A DNA stretch of 64,000 nucleotides from Gemmatimonadaceae bacterium (GTDB lineage: Bacteria; Gemmatimonadota; Gemmatimonadetes; Gemmatimonadales; Gemmatimonadaceae): positions 1 to 64,000 of the forward strand of contig JADZAN010000003.1 of NCBI GenBank assembly GCA_020852815.1, given 5' to 3'. The notes under the pieces are model-generated. The model searched no databases. It saw nothing but the letters and a program-made list of their open reading frames with translations, and had not been told where the DNA came from. A program made the translations under genes and the position numbers. Numbering within the stretch: the first letter of the stretch is position 1; each line of letters begins with the position of its first letter. Below are positions 19,384-24,131 of this stretch, piece after piece.

Positions 19384-21219
19384 TCAGCTGCAGTCGGCCG
19401 GGGCGGCCGGCGGGCGCGCCGCCTGGGACAGCTCGGCGTCGAGCGCCTGTCGCAGCGTGACCGTATCGACGCTGTAGTCCCAGTGCGGGTACACGAAGCG
19501 CGACTGCTGCTCCGTGCCCAGCACATAGCGCACGGAATGTTCCAGCGCGTCGGCCAGTGCGTTGTAGCAGGGGACGATGTAGCCGCGCTGCCCGAACTGG
19601 ATGGTGCGTGCACCTGACGGGGCAAAGACGAGGTTGGTGAGCGAGGCGCCCACGGGGGCCACCACCACGGCTGCCTGCGAGAACAGGTCGCGCTGCTCGA
19701 CCACCGTCATGCGCCCGGTCTCGACGCTCTCGAAACCGTACTCGCGGCAGACGCCCTCCACCTCCGCCTCGTTCGCCAGGCGGCGCATCGCGGCCGCCGA
19801 ACTGCGCCGCACGTAGAGCCGGCGCGTCGGCGTCGGCGCGTCGCCCAGCGCCGGGAGCGTGAGGTGCCCCCGCAGCCATTGCCAGGTGGACGCGTCGGTG
19901 CAGCCGCCATCCTTGCGGTGCTGGATGAGCGTGAGTTCGTCGAACTCCGCCACCTCGTCCGGCGCCACCTGCACCACGCGATCGAGCGAGACGCCGAGCC
20001 AGCCGAGCGTCTCGACCTGGAACGGCTGCAACGGGGCAGGGATGACGAAGCGCACGTCGGGATCGGTCAGCAGCTCGGGAGCCGCGGCAAGGCGCCCCAG
20101 GCAGTCGGCAATCCAGTGGTAGTAGTTGGCGGCGAAGTTGGTCGCCAGGAGCACGGCGCGCCCCCCGCGCACTCGCTCGGCTGTCGGCGAGTGCAGGAGG
20201 ATGCGTTGATCGGTGCTGGACCACAGGACGCAGTTGCGCCCGTGCGAGAGGACGGTCGGGATGTCGTGGCAGCGGGGGATCCCGAACTGCACGTCGGGTT
20301 CGTCGACCACCCCGTGGATATATGCCCGGTCGTGGCGATCGATGGCGAAGAACAGGTCGCCCACCACGCGCGCCTGGCGCAGCACGCGCACCTCCGAGCT
20401 CCCCGTGCGCACGGTCACCGAGCGGTCGTACTCGCGCCCCTCGTGGTGCACCCGATAGGGGATTCGCCAGTCGCGTCGCGCGCCGTCGGCCGCAACGGTG
20501 GACGGTGCCAGGGCGCCATCCACCCGGTACACTCCCTGTCGCCCGGCGCCGAGCGCCGGGACGAGCTCCGTCAGTTGCGGCTGGCGGAGCAGCTCGAGGG
20601 CGCGCTCCTCGTGATGGTCGGCAAAGGTGGCCAGTGCTCGCATCAGCAGCGTCCCCGCGGTCCCCTCGCAGGCGACAGCGCGCTCGGCGTTGGTGCGCGC
20701 CGCCGTCTCGAAGCCGGCGCGCAACTCGCACTCGGCGAGCGTTGCCAGCGCGATGGCGTCGTGCGGGGCCAGCGCGGCCGCCGCCTGCGCGAGGGCCTGT
20801 GAGCGCTTGAGGAACTCCGGCGCCAGCACCATCGGCGCGACATCGGGAACGCCGATGGCCCGGAAGTCGAGGCGTACCGGTTCCGCCTGGCGCGCGACGA
20901 GCGTGGCGTGGCGGATGTGCAGGAAGAGAAGGAGCTCCGCCGCCAGGCGCATCGTCTCCGCGTCGGGGCGACCGGCGCGCGAGAGCATCGTGGCGCAGGT
21001 GGCGAAGGCCTCGAGGTCGCGGTAGTCGTTTGCCTGGAGGAGGGCGAGCGCCCGGTACGCCGCGAGGTTGTCGGGGGCGATCGTGATCGCATCGCGCAGC
21101 GCTGCCTCGGCCTCGGGCAGTCGGTTGGCGCCCTTCAGCGCCTCGGCGTGTGCCACGAGGGCGTCGGCGGGGGCAACGGGGGCACTCTGCGGCGTCGGAT
21201 AGCGGGTGGCGGCAGTCAT
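19384..21219 (-). CDS. TPR-containing glycosyltransferase, GT61 (DUF563) type
   Basis: Protein of about 611 residues. The first third carries helical TPR-like repeats (ANRLPEAEAALRDAITIAPD is a clear unit). The C-terminal half has GT61 features: ATNFAANYYHWIADCLGRLA with the conserved H-W pair, LYVRRSS, VVVAPVGASLTNLVFAP and the late PHWDYSVD. GT61 enzymes transfer sugars such as xylose or GlcNAc onto glycans or proteins. The TPR half may hold an acceptor protein. The ATG at 21219 is taken as start; an in-frame TTG at 21276 is the alternative, and neither has a good ribosome-binding site. It ends a minus-strand cluster with a nucleotide-sugar dehydratase and an aminotransferase-like protein, suggesting decoration of a surface glycan with a modified sugar. 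Confidence 0.82.
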   Translation of the reverse strand: MTAATRYPTPQSAPVAPADALVAHAEALKGANRLPEAEAALRDAITIAPDNLAAYRALALLQANDYRDLEAFATCATMLSRAGRPDAETMRLAAELLLFLHIRHATLVARQAEPVRLDFRAIGVPDVAPMVLAPEFLKRSQALAQAAAALAPHDAIALATLAECELRAGFETAARTNAERAVACEGTAGTLLMRALATFADHHEERALELLRQPQLTELVPALGAGRQGVYRVDGALAPSTVAADGARRDWRIPYRVHHEGREYDRSVTVRTGSSEVRVLRQARVVGDLFFAIDRHDRAYIHGVVDEPDVQFGIPRCHDIPTVLSHGRNCVLWSSTDQRILLHSPTAERVRGGRAVLLATNFAANYYHWIADCLGRLAAAPELLTDPDVRFVIPAPLQPFQVETLGWLGVSLDRVVQVAPDEVAEFDELTLIQHRKDGGCTDASTWQWLRGHLTLPALGDAPTPTRRLYVRRSSAAAMRRLANEAEVEGVCREYGFESVETGRMTVVEQRDLFSQAAVVVAPVGASLTNLVFAPSGARTIQFGQRGYIVPCYNALADALEHSVRYVLGTEQQSRFVYPHWDYSVDTVTLRQALDAELSQAARPPAAPADCS

Positions 21220-21318
21220 GCGGAGCGCGCGGCTGGAAGTGTCGTCGAACCTGTCGTGGCGGGGGTTGCCGGGCAAGGCTCGAGGGAGGCGGGGGGCAGG
21301 TCCATGGATGGCGTCTCG

Positions 21319-21555: not shown

Positions 21556-22695
21556 TCAGGCATGCGCGTAGTGTCCAACGACTGACAGCACCCCGTCGAT
21601 CACGCGGTCGACGTCCGACGCTGTCATGGTGGGGGAGAGGGGGAGGCTGAGCACCGTCTCGCTGAGCCGCTCGGTGACCGGGAGCTCGAGGCGCTCGAGC
21701 GATGTCCCCGCCCAGGCGAGCTGCCGGTGCGGGGGGATGGGGTAGTGGACCAGGCACTCGATCCCGCAGCGGGCGAGGGCATCGCGCACGCCGTCACGCG
21801 CATCGCACCGCACCACGAAGAGGTGCCAGGCGTGCGTGATGTTGTCGGCGGCGACCGGAAGGATCAGCTCCGTCCCGTCGAAGGCAGCGCGATAGCGCTG
21901 CACGATGGAGCGGCGCGCCGCGTTCCAGATGGGGAGGTGCGGGAGCTTGGTGCGCAACACCGCCGCCTGCAGCGCGTCCAGGCGCGAGTGCACCCCCAGT
22001 TCGTCGTGGACGTACTTCATGGCGCTCCCGTAGTTGCGAAGCGAGCGCACACGCGCGGCGAGTTGCGCATCGTTCGTCGTGATCGCGCCGCCATCGCCTA
22101 ACGCACCGAGGTTCCTGCCCGGGTAGAACGACCACGCGGCGGCGTCGCCGAACGAGCCGACGGGGCGGCCCCCGATCGCTGCACCGTGTGCATGGGCCGC
22201 GTCCTCGACGAGGGCGAGGCGAAAGCGGGTGGCCAGCGCCCGCAGCGCCGCCATCGGCGCCGGGTGCCCGTACAGGTGCACGGGGAGGATGGCCCGCGTG
22301 CGCCCAGTGATGGCGGCGCGCACGGCACCCGGGTCGATCGTGTACGCCGTGGCGTCGACGTCGACCGGCACCACCCTGGCACCTACCGCCGTCCCGGCGA
22401 GCCAGGTGGCAATGAAGGCCCAGCCGGGGACGATCACCTCGTCGCCGGGCCCGATCCCCAGCGCGCGCAGGGCGAGCGTGATGGCGTCGAGCCCGTTGCC
22501 GACGGTCACGCAGTGACGTGTCCCGGTCACACGGGCAAACTCCGCCTCGAACCGCTCCACCTCCTCGCCCAGGACAAACGTCCCGCGGTCGAGGACGCGC
22601 GCGAGTGCCTGGTCCAGCTCCCCGCGGATCGACGCGTGCAGGCGCCCCAGGTCGTAGAAGGGGACGTTAGGCGATGCCGGACGCGCGTCCGTCAT
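21556..22695 (-). CDS. DegT/DnrJ/EryC1-family sugar aminotransferase homologue with Lys-to-Arg at the PLP site
   Basis: Fold-type I PLP protein of 379 residues with the family landmarks VGNGLDAITLALRALGIGPG, DVDATAYTIDP, VEDAAHAHGA and PGRNLGALGDGGAITTND. In active aminotransferases the last motif reads PxKNLG and its lysine forms the Schiff base with PLP. Here residue 194 is Arg (codon AGG at 22116-22114, where AAG would be Lys). All the surrounding sequence is normal, so transamination by the standard mechanism should be impaired. A sugar-binding, regulatory or non-transaminating role, or a base-call error, are the options. The ATG overlaps the dehydratase stop by 4 bases, so it is translationally coupled. 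A longer frame to 22815 was rejected. Confidence 0.85.
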   Translation of the reverse strand: MTDARPASPNVPFYDLGRLHASIRGELDQALARVLDRGTFVLGEEVERFEAEFARVTGTRHCVTVGNGLDAITLALRALGIGPGDEVIVPGWAFIATWLAGTAVGARVVPVDVDATAYTIDPGAVRAAITGRTRAILPVHLYGHPAPMAALRALATRFRLALVEDAAHAHGAAIGGRPVGSFGDAAAWSFYPGRNLGALGDGGAITTNDAQLAARVRSLRNYGSAMKYVHDELGVHSRLDALQAAVLRTKLPHLPIWNAARRSIVQRYRAAFDGTELILPVAADNITHAWHLFVVRCDARDGVRDALARCGIECLVHYPIPPHRQLAWAGTSLERLELPVTERLSETVLSLPLSPTMTASDVDRVIDGVLSVVGHYAHA

Positions 22696-23792
22696 GCGGC
22701 CGCCCCCACGCCAACCCCGACTCCAACGCCCGGATGCATTCCGGGACCCAGGCGCCGGCTGTCGCACCCCTCGCCCAGCACCTGCGTGGCCCAGCGCTCG
22801 TTGGCTACGTACCACGCCACCGTCTCGCGCAATCCCTCCTCGAAACTGCGCCGCGCCGACCAGCCAAGTTCCGCCGACGTGTGCGACGGATCGATGGCGT
22901 AGCGGGAGTCGTGTCCCGGTCGATCGGTGACGTGCGTGATGAGCGAGCGGCGGGGCGCGCCGGCAGGTGCAAGCGCGTCCACCGCGTCGCAGATGGCGCT
23001 CACGACCTCCTGGTTGGTCCGCTCCGCCCCCCCGCCAAAGACGTACGTGCGCCCCACGCGTCCGCGCTCGAGCGCCGCCACCAGGCCGCGGGCGTGATCG
23101 TCGACGTGCAGCCAGTCCCGCCCCTGGCGCCCGCTTTCATAGACGGGAATCGCTTCGAGCGCCAACGCCTTGCGCACCGCCACCGGAACCAGCTTCCCCT
23201 GAGATTGGTAGGGGCCATACTGGTTGGAACAGTTGGTGACGATGACCGGGAGGTCGTAAGTGTGATGCCAGGCGCGCGCGAAGTGAACGCTCGCCGACTT
23301 GGATGCGGCATAGGGCGAACTGGGACGGCAGGGCGACTCGAGCGAGAAGCTCCCCGTGTCGTCCAGCGCGCCGAACACCTCATCGGTCGAGACGTGCAGG
23401 AAGCGGAAGGCGCTGCGTCGCTCCGGCGGCGACGCATTCCAGTAGCGCGTGGCCTGTTCCAGCAGCGTGAAGGTTCCCACCACGTTGTTGTGCACGAGGG
23501 CCGCCGGGCCATTGATCGAGCAATCGACGTGCGACTCCGCCGCCAGGTGCATGATCGCGCGCGGCCGGTGCCGGCGCAGCACCGCCTCGACCTGCGCGGC
23601 ATTCGCGACGTCGGCACGCTCGAACGCGTGCAACGGTGAGGTCGCGGCCTCACCCAACGAAGGAATGTGCCCCGCGTGGGTCAGCGCATCGACCGTGACC
23701 ACCGGGAGCCCACGCTCCAGCACCAGATGGCGCACGAGCGCCGATCCGATGAAGCCTGCCCCGCCGGTGACGAGAATGGGTGCGTCGCGCAC
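22692..23792 (-). CDS. dTDP-glucose 4,6-dehydratase-like (extended SDR)
   Basis: Nucleotide-sugar dehydratase of about 366 residues that would make the 4-keto-6-deoxy intermediate for an aminated or deoxy sugar. Visible: NAD site ILVTGGAGFIGSALVRHLV, LHVSTDEVFGAL (catalytic Thr-Asp-Glu) and SPYAASKSASVHF (Tyr-x-x-x-Lys). The family motif HVDRSI is HVDCSI here (Cys codon at 23522-23520). The protein ends in an odd Gly-Val alternating tail before AAA. The GTG at 23792 with AGGGG upstream fits the family start; the longer frame to 23843 adds 17 polar residues. It heads the glycan cluster and overlaps the aminotransferase-like gene by 4 bases. The gene symbol rmlB is withheld because of the altered signature. 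Confidence 0.83.
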   Translation of the reverse strand: MRDAPILVTGGAGFIGSALVRHLVLERGLPVVTVDALTHAGHIPSLGEAATSPLHAFERADVANAAQVEAVLRRHRPRAIMHLAAESHVDCSINGPAALVHNNVVGTFTLLEQATRYWNASPPERRSAFRFLHVSTDEVFGALDDTGSFSLESPCRPSSPYAASKSASVHFARAWHHTYDLPVIVTNCSNQYGPYQSQGKLVPVAVRKALALEAIPVYESGRQGRDWLHVDDHARGLVAALERGRVGRTYVFGGGAERTNQEVVSAICDAVDALAPAGAPRRSLITHVTDRPGHDSRYAIDPSHTSAELGWSARRSFEEGLRETVAWYVANERWATQVLGEGCDSRRLGPGMHPGVGVGVGVGAAA

Positions 23793-24131
23793 GAAGTGCC
23801 CCTGATGATTGTCAGTCGCCGACCGCCTGTGCGGAGGTCGCAACGACGCGGAAAAGGCAATCCGGGGGCCAAGGGGCGGGATGCCGGGCCCTGCAGCAGC
23901 TCCGTGTGCGCTAAGTGCTTGGGTCGTTGGTTGTTAGGCGTGGACCGAGTGTCCTGCCGTGGCCGTGTAGTGTGCCTCTTCACGACCGTCGCGGAGGAGG
24001 TGCCCGGGAATTTCCTGCCGGGATACAGAGCACTCCAGGCCCCTGGCGGTCAATTGTGCCGACGCGCACCGGCGCCGCCCGCCCAGCCGTGACTCGATTC
24101 GTCACCGGACCGTCTATTGAGCAGCGTCCCC
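23793..24131. other. Intergenic spacer between divergent dehydratase and GGDEF genes
   Basis: About 340 bases with no convincing gene. It contains one copy of the TTAGGC word (23933-23939), the only copy lying wholly outside genes, and a mirrored CCCGGGAATTTCCTGCCGGG-like stretch near 24003-24022 that can form a short imperfect hairpin. Promoters for both flanking genes must be here but no -35/-10 pair could be picked with confidence. No riboswitch-like consensus was recognised upstream of the cyclase. Confidence 0.4.

Follow-up and report, generated by a model that had tools for sequence, protein, structure and literature searches.

Fold-type I aminotransferases are a textbook case of an indispensable lysine, and to our knowledge the His-bearing 3-dehydratases are the natural exception in the DegT family. 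The described systems closest to the protein analyzed here are the sugar 3-aminotransferases DesV of S. venezuelae (PDB 2oga/2oge), QdtB (3frk) and WlaRG (5u20/5u23). DesV, QdtB and the 7b0d protein carry the aldimine Lys, a Gln at the column numbered 168 below and an Asn at column 236; the Lys and the Asn are presumably Lys200 and Asn242 in DesV numbering. The nucleotide-sugar 3-dehydratases ColD, E1 and SpnQ are natural relatives that have another residue for the Lys and work with PMP, as the accessible parts of PMC8987622 describe; a preliminary description of the present DNA had noted that some relatives with His for Lys are dehydratases. Other Lys-less relatives are laboratory-made: Lys-to-Ala mutants of WbpE, WlaRF, ArnB and perosamine synthase (3nys, 5u21, 4oca, 3dr4) fold and hold PLP or sugar ligands, according to the titles of the entries.

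A gene of this family lies in the window, the whole 64,000-nucleotide stretch of Gemmatimonadaceae DNA that was analyzed. The gene and the codons of concern are:

21556..22695, (-) strand: homologue of DegT/DnrJ/EryC1/StrS-type (DesV/QdtB-like) aminotransferases, 379 aa, with the catalytic Lys replaced, here termed P0001 (PF01041 match, alignments, AlphaFold model).
22114..22116, (-) strand: Arg194, codon AGG, at the Schiff-base lysine position (coding sequence and alignments).
21988..21990, (-) strand: His236, codon CAC; Asn in 44/45 relatives (Val in one), DesV, QdtB and 7b0d (alignments).
22192..22194, (-) strand: His168, codon CAT; Gln in 45/45 relatives (alignment).
22417..22419, (-) strand: Ala93, codon GCC; Thr in 43 and Ser in 2 of 45 relatives (alignment).

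The plus-strand triplet CCT at 22114-22116 reads AGG on the coding strand and specifies Arg194, within SFYPGRNLGALGDGG. In HMMER alignments to DesV (2oga), 7b0d and QdtB (3frk), this residue stands opposite the Lys of the xKNLG motif. Codon and alignments thus bear out the initial observation of an Arg where the family has its catalytic Lys, and also that AAG would restore Lys, AAG to AGG being a single transition. The reading frame, which the preliminary description took to be beyond doubt, is indeed sound, since the Pfam DegT_DnrJ_EryC1 profile (PF01041) spans residues 23-369 at 372.6 bits (cut-off 19.8). The ORF is of full length, with neither stop nor frameshift, its start ATG overlaps the stop of the preceding gene (ATGA), and its GC3 of 0.897 compares with 0.836 and 0.902 in the neighbours. 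A plain Pfam match cannot tell Lys-less DegT proteins from aminotransferases. The AlphaFold monomer, a predicted model and not an experimental structure, has a mean pLDDT of 95.3, and its top PDB match is DesV (2oga; TM 0.95); P0001 is therefore predicted to have the fold type I structure of the DegT family.

P0001 resembles DesV in fold, in sequence (51% identity in the fold alignment), in length and in most motifs, and differs from it at the cofactor site. Where the DesV/QdtB/FdtB aminotransferases have the Schiff-base lysine P0001 has Arg194, and the Gln that reaches a PLP oxygen and the ligand-contacting Asn are His168 and His236. The ColD, E1 and SpnQ dehydratases have a His as acid/base, whereas P0001 has Arg194 in place of this catalytic His and keeps the NLG motif. 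P0001 scored 82-83 bits with ColD chains against 375.8 bits with DesV; assignment as a ColD-type dehydratase was rejected on the lack of a His at 194 and the far lower similarity. Unlike the engineered Lys-to-Ala mutants, P0001 has further changed columns.

Conservation was judged on 45 relatives: the paralogue encoded in the P0001 genome, the top 29 among the remaining loci of 60 related genomes (a set that gave many weaker matches beyond these), and 15 further loci drawn from a set of 179 genomes within the family; the 15, with loci already included, account for every one of the 20 matches with an E of 1e-85 or less in the family genomes. The preliminary description had singled out column 194 for inspection in relatives, and there Lys was found in 45/45, against Arg in P0001. 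The closest relative is an orthologue 61% identical (genome G034); a close orthologue was not found, matches in the congeners G001 and G002 reaching only 41-43% identity. P0001 contains 2 Lys and 35 Arg (2 and 37 in the sister protein), so that Arg is the expected replacement once Lys194 has ceased to be needed.

Three further conserved columns are changed with respect to the 45 relatives, namely T93A, Q168H and N236H. The claim that the rest of the protein keeps the family motifs consequently holds for D165, S189 (the Ser of SFYP) and NLG, and fails for the cofactor contacts Q168H and N236H and for T93A. The roles of the two retained residues, an Asp to the pyridine N1 and a Ser, follow the accessible parts of the papers cited here. 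In Pcryo_0638, the available text of PMC8040287 places the pyridoxal ring nitrogen and oxygen next to Asp156 and Gln159, and gives Thr60, Asp156, Ser180, Lys185 and Asn239 as ligand contacts strictly conserved with PglE and DesI. Five contact columns of P0001 (165, 168, 189, 194 and 236, for Asp165, Gln168, Ser189, Lys194 and Asn236) were equated with Pcryo_0638 residues from motifs, Thr60 being left out as its placement is unsure; by its motif, column 236 would correspond to Asn239. Spr1654 has a His in place of the Gln at column 168 (PMC5936713, available parts), and Q168H alone is therefore tolerated. A His at position 144 was dropped as a further change, since DesV also has His there.

Among 31 rows from the phylum, P0001 departs at 9/72 nearly invariant columns, the most of all (next, 8/74). 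Within its 15-member subfamily it departs at 7/84 columns that are invariant in the other members. General decay is not shown, because the subfamily member L063 departs equally (7/84) and yet keeps its Lys, none of its departures falling in the five contact columns. Three of these five columns are among the seven departures of P0001 (hypergeometric p of 0.0034, or 0.025 with 194 given, both post hoc). Changes clustered at the cofactor site in this way would also be consistent with an altered function. With five columns masked, the tip branch of P0001 measured 0.51 against 0.37 for its sister (unmasked, 0.70 against 0.38).

The gene is flanked by two genes that bear on its pathway:

22692..23843, (-) strand: dTDP-glucose 4,6-dehydratase, RfbB/RmlB (TIGR01181, 384.9 bits, cut-off 365.1).
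19384..21276, (-) strand: glycosyltransferase family 61 (GT61) protein, downstream of the DegT gene (profile match).

RfbB keeps GGAGFIG, TDE and YxxxK, and its stop overlaps the DegT start. Its C-terminus is a Gly-Val repeat (GVGVGVGVGAAA), encoded at 22692-22740 (-), just before the overlapping DegT start. In G034, the cluster of the closest orthologue reads rfbB - rmlA - fdtA - degT - formyltransferase, with an RmlA of 431.8 bits and, nearby on the other strand, a GT61 homologue 35% identical to that of the window. The gene for the 3,4-ketoisomerase FdtA is close by in 10/14 other subfamily members. In nine it is within 1.5 kb, in the flanks (L003, L005, L055, L059-L063, L066), and the member from G017 has two FdtA ~3 kb away; the short flanks of L054, L056, L057 and L058 showed none, two of these being stretches that end early.

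The genome that carries P0001 (G000) differs in this respect from a producer of 3-amino sugars, for which a 3,4-ketoisomerase partner is expected. The FdtA profile PF05523 gave no match anywhere in it, and the same search finds FdtA in G034, G017 and G028; a profile built from the FdtA proteins of the relatives, a search with no positive control of its own, also gave no match in this genome. The best match there to the RmlA model TIGR01207 reached 97.5 bits, under the cut-off of 360.65, and the best match to the formyltransferase of the G034 cluster was partial and 28% identical. A nucleotidyltransferase of divergent sequence, L046, which scores 153.8 bits with rmlA_long (cut-off 320.25), might still supply this genome with dTDP-glucose. 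Lys-bearing DegT proteins do not always go with an FdtA: the genomes G024, G053 and G046 encode Lys-bearing relatives from outside the subfamily, at 46-48% identity, and contain no FdtA.

We consider it fairly probable, judging from sequence comparison, that P0001 is what remains of a TDP-3-keto-6-deoxyhexose aminotransferase of the FdtB/QdtB/DesV type, probably inactive, in a truncated dTDP-amino-sugar cluster. In the ancestral pathway RmlA and RmlB would have made dTDP-4-keto-6-deoxyglucose, FdtA would have moved the keto group to C3, and the ancestor of P0001 would have carried out the amination by way of a PLP aldimine at Lys194. Since FdtA and an RmlA over the cut-off were not found in this genome, the substrate is probably not made. 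Selection on the cofactor chemistry may then have lapsed; K194, Q168, N236 and T93 are changed, the reading frame has stayed intact, and the model suggests that the family fold was kept. The change to Arg in particular would fit a GC-rich group in which nearly every unconstrained Lys appears to have become Arg. Without the Lys no internal aldimine is possible, and P0001 should therefore not transaminate. We infer the loss of catalysis, the lapse of selection and the order of these events from the comparisons above. Against this reading stand the full-length ORF, its GC3, the confident model and the Lys-bearing relatives in which no FdtA was seen. By analogy with the Lys-to-Ala mutants, P0001 may weakly bind PLP, or a nucleotide sugar. 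Of the three options first put forward (new chemistry, a non-catalytic protein or a base error), the non-catalytic protein is thus the best supported, new chemistry has found no direct support, and a base error is unlikely.

As the main rival to a decayed remnant, P0001 could be a Lys-less pseudo-aminotransferase or an altered enzyme that still functions, serving in nucleotide-sugar binding or subunit pairing, or using PMP without a Schiff base, with Arg194 and His168 as a new pair. We regard it as possible, on present evidence doubtful. The intact ORF, its overlap with an rfbB of intact motifs, the confident predicted fold, the concentration of changes in cofactor-contact columns and the ligand binding of the laboratory mutants all agree with it. 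No partner or substrate was identified, and the failure to find two enzymes of the substrate pathway in this genome weighs against it. Lys-less DegT clades in other organisms make it more credible.

The genome_contigs set, described as covering 84,980 species genomes, was scanned for Arg or Ser at this place with the pattern F[YF]Px[R/S]NLGxxG[DE][GA]G. At least three stretches matched, L039 and L041 with Arg and L040 (Flavobacterium defluvii) with Ser, a lower bound from a narrow motif with no Lys-pattern denominator; the pattern misses a five-member Arg clade, which reads PTR[STP]LG. In viral_contigs it gave 0 matches, and the corresponding Lys pattern 115; the 80 viral loci read out of these 115 were selected by their Lys, so that the presence of Lys in them says nothing. 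The outside proteins L039, L041 and L040 depart at 15/68, 10/68 and 9/68 nearly invariant columns, and L041 has, as P0001, also lost Thr93 and Asn236. In genomes related to that of L041, Lys stands in all of the 29 best-matching other loci. The equivalent 29 loci from genomes related to that of L039 comprise 17 with Lys and 12 without it, namely Arg in L221, L224, L226, L229 and L231, Ala in L230, L235 and L242, Ser in L217, L222 and L223, and Met in L220; because these loci were picked by similarity to L039, 12/29 cannot be read as a frequency.

When five columns are masked, a tree built from 45 proteins requires at least six changes between Lys and non-Lys. Eight Lys-less proteins form one clade (support 100/99), which splits into the five Arg proteins (100/98) and three with Ala (100/99). 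The five Arg members, 65-91% identical, all have His168, Thr93 and Asn236, and conservation of the Lys-less clade looks like function. They share with P0001 the replacement of the same Lys and the pair of Arg and His168, and they keep Asn236 and Thr93, both of which P0001 has lost; the loss of Asn236 counts against the functional alternative. The natural Lys-less proteins lie on separate branches, as independent losses, with gene neighbours other than those of P0001. A common origin of P0001 with L039 and L041 was rejected, P0001 being sister to L003 (96/90), and a weak L039-L041 pairing in an earlier tree is missing from the masked 45-protein tree.

Over the rows of this tree, His168 occurs in 8 and Asn236 is missing in 6 of the 16 that lack Lys, against 0 and 0 of the 29 that have it. 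Arg and His168 occur together in 7/8 Arg rows versus 1/37 other rows, which favours the functional alternative; over independent pairs, however, the co-change holds in 3/4 and is not significant. Moreover, His168 also occurs where Lys is present, in Spr1654 (PMC5936713, available parts) and in 3/80 viral loci. A few Lys-bearing proteins outside the tree have likewise lost Asn236: L008 (Val), L214 (Gly) and 2/80 viral loci. The loss of Thr93 was discarded as a specific mark, as 7/29 Lys-bearing rows of the tree also lack Thr or Ser. The idea that a Lys-bearing partner is encoded next to the Lys-less genes was also discarded, since each of the 15 stretches searched had a single DegT place. The preliminary description knew of no Arg at this place. 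Titles and opening parts of abstracts indeed yielded no paper on a natural Arg at the DegT lysine, in a coverage outside which most subscription papers lie, and the available passages of PMC6522883 hold nothing on the point; the sequences themselves, however, have Arg in L039, L041 and the five-member clade as well.

Several neighbourhoods were recorded alongside. The DegT gene of L040 (2774-3910 (-), F. defluvii DSM 17963) has Ser encoded by AGC, two changes from a Lys codon, with the equivalents of Thr93, Gln168 and Asn236 intact; its genome has an FdtA, which is not within the 8 kb stretch around the DegT gene. At five loci (L245, L246, L248, L249, L257) a DegT gene with Ser, Met or Lys is followed by a gene of one family, of which the two members scanned are RibD-like deaminase/reductases, and at three of the five then by uridine-kinase-like and PfkB/nucleotidyltransferase families (one member of each scanned). 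Shortly downstream of three of the five Arg-type DegT genes (L251, L252, L254) stand members of a single gene family, and the one that was scanned is a sigma-54 response regulator. In L041 (1693-5826, a KSB1 MAG) the Arg-type DegT gene stands beside YdjC-like, NDP-sugar epimerase/dehydratase-like and glycosyltransferase genes.

A wider form of the functional alternative, which we think rather unlikely, would make the natural Lys-less DegT proteins a functional class that has arisen recurrently. Several lineages would have exchanged Lys for Arg, Ala, Ser or Met while selection maintained the fold, and the Arg194/His168 pair would have appeared repeatedly. P0001 would then be a recent, independent addition to the class, binding PLP/PMP or a nucleotide sugar with no Schiff base and serving in different chemistry, in regulation or as a partner.

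A base or assembly error, with a true codon AAG in an ordinary aminotransferase, has little probability in our view: the single transition and the Lys of all 45 relatives would agree with it, but three more columns, nearly invariant in these Lys-bearing relatives, are changed too and the two pathway partners FdtA and RmlA were not found, which makes such an error unlikely, and the site lies ~22 kb inside a contig of 162.6 kb.

The preliminary description had noted that a different lysine might do the job, and a transfer of the Schiff-base role to Lys227 or Lys250, the sole lysines left in P0001, can be dismissed as highly improbable: the alignments reveal no substitute, these two being ordinary family lysines (227, K 17 and R 4 among 21 close relatives; 250, K 21/21; apart from these two and 194, no column reaches 70% Lys in the 21) that relatives carry alongside K194, and in Pcryo_0638 Lys215, in the same region and by inference equivalent to 227, contacts the sugar diphosphate (PMC8040287, available text).

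For this bacterium, with P0001 probably an inactive remnant, the amino sugar that its gene content would predict should not be assumed. For the family, the naturally occurring proteins with Arg, Ala, Ser or Met, some of them conserved across several genomes, would serve to test what the aminotransferase fold does without a Schiff base.
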